This document shows positions 14,775-64,000 of a DNA stretch of 64,000 nucleotides, one piece after another; the first letter of the stretch is position 1, and each line of letters begins with the position of its first letter. The DNA is from Actinomycetes bacterium (GTDB taxonomy: Bacteria; Bacillota; Sulfobacillia; Sulfobacillales; JAIMBI01), in the NCBI GenBank assembly GCA_023565505.1, contig JAIMBI010000012.1, positions 19,917 to 83,916 on the forward strand. The letters are read 5' to 3'. The notes under the pieces were generated by a model that saw nothing but the letters and a program-made list of their open reading frames with translations, was not told the DNA's origin and searched no databases. Position numbers and translations under genes: made by a program.

Positions 14775-16025
14775 ATGCGGACGAAAGGGGGAGCGGCGGT
14801 GACGATGCCCGGCACGGACCTCTTCGCGGGGCTCAAGGTGCTCGACCTGGCCTGGGTGGGGGTCGGCCCCCTCACGACCAAGTACTTGGCGGACCACGGC
14901 GCGGTTGTGGTCCACGTCGAGAGTTCGCGCCGGCCCGACGTGCTGCGGACGATGCCGCCGTTCGCCGGCGGGGTGCCGGGCCTCAACCGGAGCCAGTTCT
15001 ACGCCGAGTACAATTCCAGCAAGCTGGGATTCGGCGTGGACCTCGGTCATCCGGACGGCCGGGCCCTGGTCCGCGAGCTGGCCCGCTGGGCGGACGTCGT
15101 CGTCGAGTCGTTCACGCCCCACGTGCTGGCGCGCTGGGAACTCGACTATCCCCACCTCGCCGCGGACAACCCGGGCCTCATCATGCTGTCGACCTGTCTC
15201 TTCGGCCAGACGGGTCCGTATCGGGACGTCCCCGGTTTCGGCACCAGCATGGCGCCGATCTGCGGCTTCTACCACCTGACCGGCTATCCCGACGCGGCGC
15301 CGGTCCCGCCGTACGGCGCGTATACGGACTTCGTCTGCCACCGGTTCACCGCGGCGGCGCTGCTGGCCGCCCTGCTCCACCGCGCCGCCACGGGCGAGGG
15401 GCAGTACATCGACGCGGCCCAGTTCGAGATGGCGCTCCAGTTCCTCGGTCCCGTGCTCCTGGACGCGGCCGCGCACGGGCGCGTGGCCGGACGCTCGGGG
15501 AACAAGTCGCCCTGGGCGGCGCCGCACGACATCTACCCCTGCCGCGACCCCGACACGTGGTGCGCCATCGCCGTGGAGACGGACGCGCAGTGGCAGGCAC
15601 TGAAGACCAAGATGGGACGGCCGGCGTGGGCCGCGGACCCCAAGTGGGACACGCTGGAGGGCCGCAAGCGGTACGAGGCGGAGCTCGACGGGCGGCTGGC
15701 GGAATGGACCCGGGGTTTTACGCCCGACGAGCTCATGCACCGCCTGCAGCCGGAGGTCCCCGCCGGCGCGGTGCGGGACATCGCCGGGATTTTCGCCGAC
15801 GCGCAGATCCGGGCCCTGGGCTACTTCGTCGACCTGGAGCATCCGGAGATGGGGCGCGTCCCGTACACCGGCGTCGAATTCCGGTTCGCGGACCGGCCTG
15901 TGGGGCTCCGTTGGGCGGCCCCCACGCTGGGCCAGCACACCTATGAGGTGCTGCACGACATTCTGGGCAAATCGGACGAGGTCATCGCCGACCTCCTGGC
16001 CCGCGAGGTCGTGGAGATCACCTGA
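14775..16025 (+). CDS. Family III CoA-transferase (CaiB/BaiF), catalytic Asp present
   Basis: VLDLAWVGVGPLTTKYLADHGAVVVHVESS; YTDFVCHRFTAAALLAALLHRAATGEGQ; an internal start about 30 nt downstream is possible. Confidence 0.87.
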   Translation: MRTKGGAAVTMPGTDLFAGLKVLDLAWVGVGPLTTKYLADHGAVVVHVESSRRPDVLRTMPPFAGGVPGLNRSQFYAEYNSSKLGFGVDLGHPDGRALVRELARWADVVVESFTPHVLARWELDYPHLAADNPGLIMLSTCLFGQTGPYRDVPGFGTSMAPICGFYHLTGYPDAAPVPPYGAYTDFVCHRFTAAALLAALLHRAATGEGQYIDAAQFEMALQFLGPVLLDAAAHGRVAGRSGNKSPWAAPHDIYPCRDPDTWCAIAVETDAQWQALKTKMGRPAWAADPKWDTLEGRKRYEAELDGRLAEWTRGFTPDELMHRLQPEVPAGAVRDIAGIFADAQIRALGYFVDLEHPEMGRVPYTGVEFRFADRPVGLRWAAPTLGQHTYEVLHDILGKSDEVIADLLAREVVEIT

Positions 16026-60682: not shown

Positions 60683-60944
60683 GGACAATCCTCCCTTGCT
60701 CTTCCGGGAACAACGCCGGTCTGGACCCACGGACGCCCGGAGCCCGTCACGACGGCTGTCCGGACAGGAGACGGCTTGGCGCCCGTCCGTGTCCCGCGGA
60801 CGCGACGCCGTGTTCCCAGGGTATGCGCCCGAGGGCTCTGGGTTGTCTTGGAATCCGTGGCGGCCGGCTGCCAACGTCGCGGCGGGGAGAGTGGGCAAAC
60901 CTCCCGTGCGTATGATGGGGCGGAGGGCAAGGGAGGGAACGACC

Positions 60945-61525
60945 ATGCGCCCGGGTGCGGATCGCGAGCCGGACAATGCCCGCGACGTGATCCGGTGGGT
61001 GGAGGCGGGGCGGCTGACCCCGGCGGAAGCTCTCGGGCGGCTCCGCCGCCTGGACGGGCGACCGGCCCCGCCCTCGGGCATCCGCGCGCCCGAGGACCAT
61101 GTCCACACCGCGGAGCACGTGTGGCGGGAGATCGACAGCCTGGTCGGCTTGAAGGAGGTCAAGCGGCAGATCCGGGAGATCTGGGCGTTCGTCGAGATCC
61201 AGCGCCGTCGCGGGGCCGTGGGGCTGGCCACGGAGGCCCAGACGTTGCACATGATCTTCCGGGGGGCCCCGGGTACCGGCAAGACGACGGTCGCCCGTCT
61301 CGTCGGGCGCCTGTTCGCGGCCCTCGACGTCCTGCCCAAGGGGCACCTGGTCGAGGTGGAGCGGGCCGACCTGGTCGGTGAGTACATCGGTCACACGGCC
61401 CAGAAGACCCGCGAGGTGATTCGCCGCGCCATGGGCGGCGTGATGTTCGTCGACGAGGCGTACAGCCTGGCGCGGGGCGGCGAGAAGGATTTCGGCAAGG
61501 AGGCCATCGACACGCTGGTCAACAC
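60945..61525 (+). pseudogene. spoVK: SpoVK-like AAA+ sporulation ATPase, truncated/interrupted at about 61,520
   Basis: [68 protein letters not shown] then unrelated residues [15 protein letters not shown]...; 3' half absent downstream in the window. Confidence 0.85.
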
Positions 61526-61531
61526 CTATGT

Positions 61532-61918
61532 TTGCGTTTTTGGTATCGAACCGAGTGCCACTGGCCCCTCGGACAACGCTATTACTCGGACGACTTTTTG
61601 GAGCGGACAAGCCATCGCTTTGAGGCGCGGCTCCCGGAACTCATCGAACTGTATTATGGAGAACAGAAGAGCCTGAAGGAGATTGAGCAGGCAACGGGTA
61701 TTCCATGGTATGGCATCAAGTACCTTTTTCACCTGTATGGGATTCGTCGGATGACGCTCAAAGAACGGGGGCGACTGCGCCGTCTAAAGGACAGAAACCA
61801 AGTAGAACACTTATATCGGGAAAAGCACTTCTCCGTGGTGACGATTGCACGATTGTTAGATCGATCACCGACCTATGTCCGCTCGGTTCTCCGTGACATC
61901 GAGGAGAGCGATACATGA
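61532..61918 (+). CDS. Predicted DNA-binding protein with two HTH-like segments (5' end may be truncated)
   Basis: [25 protein letters not shown] and [25 protein letters not shown]; frame extends upstream to the spoVK junction. Confidence 0.55.
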
Positions 61919-62004
61919 CACGACCTCAGGGCAAGCCTGTCAGGGGTGCGCGTATCATCAGGATGGGAGGATACGCCAGCCCCACCAGCGAACCCTGAAG
62001 CGGG

Positions 62005-62382
62005 GTGATTTGTCACGTGAATGACGCAGCAACACGCCGGGAAGAACTGCGCCGCGCCATCGAAGACCGTATTCATGCCCTGTTCGGAACCCGACCTCGT
62101 ACCGGGGATTATTACGAGGACTTTTATGGGGACGGCACGCGGTTCCAGGGTTCCGACGAAGACTACAAGTGGCTTGAGGAAACCTTTGGCATTACGGAAG
62201 AAGAAGACGTGCGCTGGCAACTGATCGAGGAGGACCATTACTACGGGGAGACGACCGAGGAAAGAGAGACCGGGGAGCCTGATGAGCTTCGACCGTGGCT
62301 TGACGACGATGAAGCCGTCTGCGCGTTTCTGGAGGACCTGAAGCGAAAGTACGAGTCGGTGGCCGCCACCTATCCTGGATAA
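62005..62382 (+). CDS. Hypothetical acidic protein
   Basis: 125 aa ORF, lower GC, followed by strong terminator. Confidence 0.6.
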   Translation: MICHVNDAATRREELRRAIEDRIHALFGTRPRTGDYYEDFYGDGTRFQGSDEDYKWLEETFGITEEEDVRWQLIEEDHYYGETTEERETGEPDELRPWLDDDEAVCAFLEDLKRKYESVAATYPG

Positions 62383-62426: not shown

Positions 62427-62879
62427 TTAGTTGGCCTTGGTTTGCGTGGCGTCCACAGCCGCCGCGACAGCCTTTTCCGCGTCAGCCTTGGCGTCGGCTT
62501 GGATCTGTGCGGGATTCTTTGCCGCCTCGGCGCGGAAGGCGCGGACACCGGCGTTCAGAGCGGCGTCCAGGACCGGACCCGTCAGGCTCAGACCGTGCGT
62601 ATGAGCGACCTGAATCAGCCGTCCGGCGATCTCCTGGCTGGCCTGCTCTTCCGTCATACCAGCCGTCGCCTGAAGGGCTCCCGGCAGGATGACGTGGAGA
62701 AGGTGGTCAGCCGCCTGGACCTCACTGATAAAGCGGTCAGCCTGGGCTTTGCCCAAGTGAGCCTCCAAGAGACCCTGAACCCTGGGACGTTCGGCCACGA
62801 CCACGTAAGCCAACGCGACTCCGGCGAGTTCAGCCAAACCGGACAAAACTTGACTCACGACAGCGGGCGGAATGGGCAT
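62427..62879 (-). CDS. Phage holin-like protein (LLH-type suspected)
   Basis: N-terminal hydrophobic AELAGVALAYVVVAE, then basic/Ala-rich helical region ending ...AAAVDATQTKAN; terminator directly downstream. Confidence 0.5.
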   Translation of the reverse strand: MPIPPAVVSQVLSGLAELAGVALAYVVVAERPRVQGLLEAHLGKAQADRFISEVQAADHLLHVILPGALQATAGMTEEQASQEIAGRLIQVAHTHGLSLTGPVLDAALNAGVRAFRAEAAKNPAQIQADAKADAEKAVAAAVDATQTKAN

Positions 62880-62920: not shown

Positions 62921-63373
62921 TTACCGAGAAGGGGGGATGATCTGTGTCCCTGACTTAGCGGCTTTCAACGCCAACAGGATCGGCCACGTAATCTCGTGAA
63001 TCCCGGTCCCTTGGCCGGTATGGTGAGGGCGGCAGAGGACGACGAGATTCCGAATGTCGTCGGGGCTAGTAATAGGGTCAGTGAGATGCCGACTGAAGCC
63101 ATAAGGGTCAAGGAGACGAAGCGTCTCTTGGACTTGATCGGGATCGAGGTCGTTCCACAGGCTCCACTCGAACCAGTGGTGCGTTTCCAGGTTCTCCCTG
63201 GACCCACAGATCCAGCAGGGGAGCCCCATTTCCTGCACCAGAATGTGGTGGTTTTTGCGGTACTCCTCTGCGGTGGGATCTTCCAGCCGCTTGACGTGTT
63301 CCGGGACTAGCACTTTCTCCGTCAAATGACGGACAATTTCGTGCGCGGCGACGACGGACTCCAAAAATGTCAT
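62921..63373 (-). CDS. HNH endonuclease-like phage protein
   Basis: CWICGSRENLETHHWFEWSLWNDL...NLVVLCRPHHTGQGTGIHEITWP. Confidence 0.75.
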   Translation of the reverse strand: MTFLESVVAAHEIVRHLTEKVLVPEHVKRLEDPTAEEYRKNHHILVQEMGLPCWICGSRENLETHHWFEWSLWNDLDPDQVQETLRLLDPYGFSRHLTDPITSPDDIRNLVVLCRPHHTGQGTGIHEITWPILLALKAAKSGTQIIPPSR

Positions 63374-63391
63374 CCTTTCGGGAGGGATACG

Positions 63392-63721
63392 ATGCTAACG
63401 GTCGTGGTCATGGGGACTTTATCAAATGGATTGAGCGGAGCAGCATGGCGCAAGGGCGGGACCCAATATCGCCTCAACGCCTTGATCGAGGCCATAGAGA
63501 CCATCGGCGGAGAGGTCGCCGCGATTCAGTTCCCCAACCGGACTTTTGGCCTAACCGACATTCGGTACGCGCTAACGGTGCGGGTGCCGTCCAAAGAGAT
63601 TCGGGATAAAGTGCTGGCGCTGCCCCGTTTGCCGCTGCGAGGCTGGGGATTTCGGGCTGACGAGTGGGTGAAAGAAGCTGTCGCCCGAGCGGAGACGGCT
63701 CCGCGTAAGGCGGTTGTGTAG
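63392..63721 (+). CDS. Hypothetical phage-associated protein
   Basis: 109 aa ORF with GGGAGGG before ATG, followed by strong intrinsic terminator. Confidence 0.65.
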   Translation: MLTVVVMGTLSNGLSGAAWRKGGTQYRLNALIEAIETIGGEVAAIQFPNRTFGLTDIRYALTVRVPSKEIRDKVLALPRLPLRGWGFRADEWVKEAVARAETAPRKAVV

Positions 63722-63767: not shown

Positions 63768-63936
63768 ATTGAGCGGGGGCGACTGGCTTAAGGGCGTTGA
63801 AAGCCTGACCGGCGGCGGCCAAGACTGCGGCGTACTGCTGGTGCAGTTGGTTGTACTGCGCCTGGAGATTTGTGACCTGAGCCTGAGCAGCGGTGGCCTG
63901 CTGTTGGGCGGCCTCGATCTGGCTGTCAACGCCGGT
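63766..63936 (-). pseudogene. 3' remnant of an Ala/Gln-rich coiled-coil gene
   Basis: Manual translation ...TGVDSQIEAAQQQATAAQAQVTNLQAQYNQLHQQYAAVLAAAGQAFNALKPVAPAQ*; in-frame stop and no start at the mobile element junction. Confidence 0.7.
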
Positions 63937-64000
63937 TTAAATTTGATCCACTTGCGCCGGTCAAAATTGACCCACCTGCGGACTCCCCCAGCGAGGTGGG
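63937..64000. mobile_element. Probable end of an IS21-family insertion sequence (continues beyond window)
   Basis: TTGATCCACTTGCG (63943) and TTGACCCACCTGCG (63967), 12/14 direct repeats 24 bp apart, typical multi-repeat IS21 termini with TTGACCCACC core. Confidence 0.6.

Follow-up and report, generated by a model that had tools for sequence, protein, structure and literature searches.

The question raised by this locus is why spoVK, a gene of the mother-cell sporulation programme, breaks off in the middle of the AAA domain that it encodes and gives way to DNA of a different character. The window, i.e., the whole stretch of 64,000 nucleotides that was analysed (G000:C19:19917-83916), contains on its forward strand the 5' part of spoVK (60945..61520), which starts with the ATG at 60945 and encodes residues 1-192, including the Walker A and Walker B motifs. 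This part is 60-65% identical to its counterparts in intact relatives, matches the TIGR02881 spore_V_K family with an E value of 8.5e-69 and retains homology with the relatives through residue 192. The stop in homology near 61,520 that was pointed out in the first-pass annotation is real, and the point of divergence from intact spoVK homologues could be refined to the dinucleotide AA at 61521-61522. The accompanying shift in base composition is also there (GC from 0.74 to 0.59), and the rest of the AAA domain is indeed missing from the remainder of the window, because contig C19 terminates exactly at window position 64000, inside the end of an IS21-like element. Upstream of the gene, CGTATGAT (60909..60916, forward strand) is a candidate -10 element of a mother-cell, sigmaE/sigmaK-type spoVK promoter. 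Of 20 loci, 13 carry the CGTATNNT motif ahead of spoVK, as compared to 0.47 expected from shuffled sequences, and the motif is present in the window too. In relatives (e.g., L016, L020, and L026), this motif is preceded at a distance of about 20-30 bases by a conserved GGACAGGCAG-like box, possibly a SpoIIID site, which was not seen upstream of spoVK in the window.

When the same genome was searched with full-length SpoVK, C19 was matched by the 5' part and contig C9 by the 3' part (C9:14839-15249); on C9 the missing half of the gene (KAMEDHKSEFLLILAGY...) occupies positions 14854-15252. Simple loss of spoVK, which had been named as an alternative, is ruled out by the existence of this 3' half. 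No second spoVK was found in this search; an intact one, with no 3' half beyond the element, would have spoken against the interruption. At the examined loci of relatives spoVK is whole. It is followed by a GTPase gene in 19 of 19 of them, and the same GTPase gene follows the 3' half on C9, while miaA lies upstream of spoVK in the three relative loci whose fetched flank reached that far. The shared order of these genes indicates, therefore, that C19 and C9 represent two sides of one ancestral locus.

The short repeat anticipated at both junctions is the shared core AA. It forms the crossover dinucleotide of attL (61501..61552, forward strand; ...GACACGCTGGTC-AA-CACCTATGTTTG...) and recurs in attR on C9 (core at 14854-14855; ...GAGAACACAAGTG-AA-GGCGATGGAGG...). 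Joining of the host sides of both sites at AA restores an in-frame gene that reads ...DTLV/KAMED... (the slash marks the split between V192 and K193), which is the consensus of the intact relatives, and the joined SpoVK matches TIGR02881 with an E value of 3.9e-120. Thus, both halves of the gene have been kept and can be rejoined in frame by means of a short shared core, as is typical of the intervening elements of sporulation genes, and the interrupted gene is one whose expression in the mother cell is known from Bacillus subtilis. Joining of the phage sides produces attP with the near-palindromic arms AACACAAGTG-AA-CACCTATGTT, in which 8 or more of 12 positions match; matching of this extent occurs at 0.36% of element positions.

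A large serine recombinase, which the annotation had expected at the far end of the element, is encoded on C9 and directly abuts the 3' half of spoVK. Its N-terminal 564 codons (C9:13164-14855) cover resolvase, recombinase, and zinc-ribbon domains. The frame of this gene runs across the reconstructed attP into an open reading frame at the other end of the element, in the window (61523..61918, forward strand), to give one protein of 695 aa; the window part encodes the severed C-terminal portion of 131 aa with two predicted helix-turn-helix units.

We consider it very probable that the element is a prophage, or an intervening element derived from one, with its left end at the V192/K193 codon pair of spoVK, a split integrase, restoration of two genes upon excision, and, likely, excision in the mother cell. 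The sequences of both junctions show that the element's own large serine integrase has inserted it at V192/K193, and that integration cuts spoVK and at the same time parts the catalytic end of the integrase from its C-terminal helix-turn-helix domain. Recombination between attL and attR, as reconstructed in silico, would yield full-length spoVK in the chromosome and the 695-aa integrase on the excised circle. Excision would most likely be induced in the mother cell at sporulation, as in the case of SPbeta in spsM, phi3T in kamA, and skin in sigK, because the cortex cannot form without SpoVK, a chaperone of the mother cell. There SpoVK activates MurG, and cells that have lost it make no cortex (PMC10659427). 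The spoVK gene of B. subtilis is under the control of sigmaE/SpoIIID and sigmaK (PMC517825). This role in cortex formation, together with the sporulation promoters, implies that a lysogen unable to excise the prophage should be sporulation-defective. With Spo0A, an intact sigK, and sigE/sigG-like genes, the host is equipped with the main regulators of sporulation. The simplest way of keeping both the host and the phage would be for the prophage to leave in the mother cell.

The DNA between the two halves of spoVK is lower-GC phage DNA, as had been suspected from the genes downstream of the break. In the window, the tail of the integrase gene is followed by CGTATCAT (61951..61958, forward strand), which is one of four C[AG]TATNNT sites found on both strands in 17.3 kb of element sequence and a possible mother-cell -10 element; it sits in an inverted repeat, GCGTATC...GATACGC, and its promoter function is uncertain. 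Farther on there are a reverse-strand gene for a 150 aa protein with no PHROG match and a weak Pfam match (62427..62879), a reverse-strand HNH endonuclease-like gene (62921..63373; phrog_8048, E 1e-18), and a forward-strand gene for a protein of about 109 aa (63392..63721, within the open frame 63326-63721) that had no match in PHROG/Pfam-type family searches. The last phage feature of the window is the 3' remnant of a Gln/Ala-rich phage ORF (63770..63923, reverse strand), cut by the IS in such a way that its N-terminal part lies beyond the IS end; the 77 bp left end of the IS21-like element itself (63924..64000) forms the contig terminus, and an identical 77-mer ends contigs C1, C10, and C18. 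Contig C9 starts at an IS-like repeat, followed by about 14.8 kb of phage genes on one strand with 57-62% GC. They encode a ribonucleotide reductase fragment, MazG-like, Toprim, sigma-like, and SSB-like proteins, DNA polymerase A, a Cas4-like protein, RuvC, RecA, ThyX, and, as the last one, the large serine recombinase, past which GC returns to about 70%. The Cas4-like/PD-(D/E)XK phage protein encoded at L005:6370-7212 matches phrog_1706, while tblastn against the collection of phage records gave no match for it.

With IS ends on both sides of a gap, the phage region seems to be either partly decayed or not fully assembled. The two IS ends at which the contigs stop within the element are not the same, and the ribonucleotide reductase gene and the Gln/Ala-rich ORF are cut there. 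The missing middle of the element was not found in the bin, in which contigs C1, C4, C10, C18, and C24 are host-like high-GC DNA; the N-terminal half of the phage ribonucleotide reductase was not found in the bin either. The IS21-like element is present in at least four copies (window 63924-64000; C1, C10, C18 and C30, C6, C4, C24). The flanks of three copies can be paired by 4-5 bp target duplications and those of the C19 and C24 ends cannot, which suggests a rearrangement or a missing contig. A direct continuation of C19 into C9 through a single IS copy was considered but found no support: the two IS ends are unlike each other, and the flanks matched through target duplications belong to host contigs.

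These breaks bear on the possibility that the prophage is decayed and non-excisable, that it has permanently inactivated spoVK, and that the strain sporulates poorly or never. Such a state would be in line with the interruption of the element by IS ends on either side of the gap, with the two truncated genes, and with the lack of a match to terminase (phrog_2) in the bin. However, both attachment sites remain open and intact, as does the entire catalytic portion of the integrase, and the halves of spoVK are still open frames that rejoin perfectly, where erosion would be expected after a permanent loss. Elements of the skin type, moreover, have shed their phage functions and yet keep excision (PMC4191935). 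We therefore regard permanent inactivation as rather unlikely and infer that this copy probably still excises; either the prophage is decaying but has kept a working excision unit, or it is intact and its middle was not binned.

The integrase of this prophage deserves separate attention. Over residues 25-689, the joined protein aligns at about 36% identity (E about 1e-114) with integrases from five phages of the SPbeta group, namely SPR, SPbetaL2, Goe14, and BUCT082/083, which are matched end to end, while all other phage matches listed end near residue 570 or earlier. The tail alone aligned with the Goe14 tail with a score of 107, as compared to 29 (SD 5) for shuffled sequences. Its structural model comprises seven helices (mean pLDDT of 81), which can be read as two helix-turn-helix-like units. 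Matches of the tail to known structures are weak, both by sequence and by fold: PDB searches gave no significant match, and the low-scoring local matches included helix-turn-helix domains. In Bacillus-type phages, dN/dS of the tail, where estimable, is 0.10-0.14, which points to purifying selection. In the Goe14 record, the attachment site is annotated inside the integrase CDS, as an AA-centred near-palindrome at a nearly corresponding place. The location of the attachment site inside the integrase gene means that the enzyme loses a conserved C-terminal domain, about 130 residues long, upon integration, and in the lysogen studied here the integrase body runs into an out-of-frame spoVK tail.

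The 131-aa tail might alternatively be the product of an independent gene that is expressed in the lysogen. In lysogens it is physically separate from the integrase body, and the submitters of the Goe14 record annotated an additional CDS (1855-2148) in the tail region. Against this, the tail lacks both a clear ribosome-binding site and a good start at attL, it is in frame with the integrase across attP both in our element and in the Bacillus-type elements, and a single annotated CDS spans the body and the tail in SPR and BUCT082. An independent gene is thus unlikely, and the tail is best regarded as the C-terminal domain of the integrase. We tentatively propose that the full-length integrase of about 690 aa is made only from the free circle, and that the loss of the tail in the lysogen could serve as a built-in integration/excision switch, which unrelated phages of distant Bacillota would have kept along with the spoVK target. 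An influence of tail loss on the direction of recombination would be plausible, as work cited in PMC8270828 proposed that a direction toggle includes the extreme C-terminal end of SprA.

The interruption of spoVK is no isolated case but belongs to a recurring family. A search of viral contigs with SpoVK revealed eight proviruses in which the spoVK part extends only up to residues 193-195. In these proviruses, the integrase tail adjoins the 5' part of spoVK, and the integrase body lies at the other end, followed by spoVK 3' sequence; the core (AA/AAG) and the spoVK codon are the same as here. The joined integrases of seven of these eight Bacillus-type proviruses are of 689-693 aa, and the frame of the body in those lysogens ends at 563-600 aa, while in the eighth one (G542) the body is frameshifted. 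One of the eight matches the DNA of SPbeta-group phages with up to 99% identity. A spoVK-integrated provirus with a frameshifted integrase body, L209 (IMGVR_UViG_2850943043_000004), may be locked in spoVK. A search with the integrase alignment recovered 19 viral-contig loci, which overlap in part with the eight proviruses of the SpoVK search. In 18 of these 19 loci the integrase abuts spoVK 3' sequence at the same codon, and the remaining one (L192) encodes an uninterrupted full-length integrase. A scan of viral and genome contigs with the integrase of our element alone retrieved no close relative, although the alignment-based scan did find relatives. In a genome of the same phylum (G261), the whole arrangement is present on one contig in an element of about 75.7 kb, and the integrase, 47% identical to ours, is the only gene that is similar between the two elements. 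Among 398 genomes sampled from the phylum, the integrase was detected at E <= 1e-70 only in G261 and in the genome of the window. All spoVK-site integrases tested formed one group in the phylogenetic tree, with 100/100 support.

Misassembly at the junction, the other alternative that had been raised, is excluded because those 18 viral-contig loci and one further genome have the integrase next to spoVK at this very codon; the split at this codon in unrelated records that span the element, as well as the conserved synteny, leads to the same conclusion. A chimera of C9 and C19 from different strains, for which one could cite the estimated bin contamination of 6.6% and the location of the element ends on separate contigs, is extremely improbable, as the junctions lie inside contigs, about 2.4 kb and 14.8 kb from breaks that occur at IS repeats, the same junction structure is found in G261 and in the eight IMG/VR proviruses, and a single protein homologous to phage integrases results when the tail from one end is joined to the integrase from the opposite end.

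Goe14, SPR, SPbetaL2, BUCT082/083, and the Bacillus-type spoVK proviruses have in common with the prophage studied here the integrase clade and the end-to-end homology that includes the tail. They also share attP inside the integrase gene, the AA core, and attB at the V/K codon of spoVK. However, the integrase body of our element is only 39% identical to that of Goe14, and its host, with GC above 70%, is a distant and different spore-former. Among the matches listed, the best ones for DNA polymerase, RecA, and the Cas4-like protein are scattered and none is to the SPbeta group, and the bin contains no structural genes. The prophages SPbeta in spsM and phi3T in kamA of B. subtilis (PMC4191935, PMC6957869) are alike in the interruption of a mother-cell sporulation gene, the terminal serine integrase, and the precise in-frame rejoining. 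They differ in their integrases and target genes, as well as in the position of attP, which in those phages is flanked by int and rdf and here lies inside int. The skin element likewise carries a serine recombinase, restores a sporulation gene upon excision, and has a partly decayed phage content, but its target is sigK, which is uninterrupted in our host. In Myxococcus phage Mx8, attP is located inside the integrase gene (intP/intX), and integration alters the C-terminus of the integrase; the latter is, however, a tyrosine integrase, and the phage and its target are unrelated.

Sporulation-associated genes that are interrupted according to the literature include sigK, spsM, spoVFB, spoVR, gerE, yabG, and kamA, and among the papers covered by our literature search none ties spoVK to an intervening element. 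An abstract by Kohm et al. from 2022 reportedly gives spoVK as the integration locus of Goe14, and the spoVK site should be treated as already reported for Bacillus. As far as we have checked, the novelty lies in a distant host of high GC, in phage cargo that is unrelated, and in the joint conservation of the target codon with the split architecture of the integrase. While prophages that sit in sporulation genes are of a known kind, the integration-dependent truncation of the integrase is the most novel part. One integrase-target pair, a self-split serine integrase and a fixed spoVK codon, is common to at least three otherwise different prophage types of distant spore-formers. This extends the rule that phages settle in late sporulation genes whose products only the dying mother cell requires, and provides a natural system in which the truncation of a serine integrase upon integration can be tested, which bears on the open question of direction control.

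Two genes are candidates for a recombination directionality factor, and neither passed a similarity test. The weaker candidate is the first gene inside attL past the integrase tail (62017..62382, forward strand), which encodes an acidic protein of 121 aa and is preceded by the SD-like GGGGTGAT; it had no convincing family match and no homologue at the same place in other spoVK proviruses. The other candidate is a small ORF that immediately precedes the gene for the spoVK-site integrase, seen at L005:12958-13182 and as equivalents in G261 and SPR (74, 62, and 48 aa, respectively). Its position is conserved in three phage types, and the similarity between the groups is weak, most pairs being non-significant.

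Two minor observations concern other genes. Genomes G002-G006 of the same family (f1) encode a multi-AAA SpoVK-like protein of about 1150-1240 aa (e.g., G002:C93 and G006:C106), which was not detected at E <= 1e-10 in the genome of the window. The latter genome encodes a second, unrelated large serine recombinase (G000:C11:9992-10921; L072:4924-6453), which is located in high-GC DNA and adjoins an enoyl-CoA hydratase gene.
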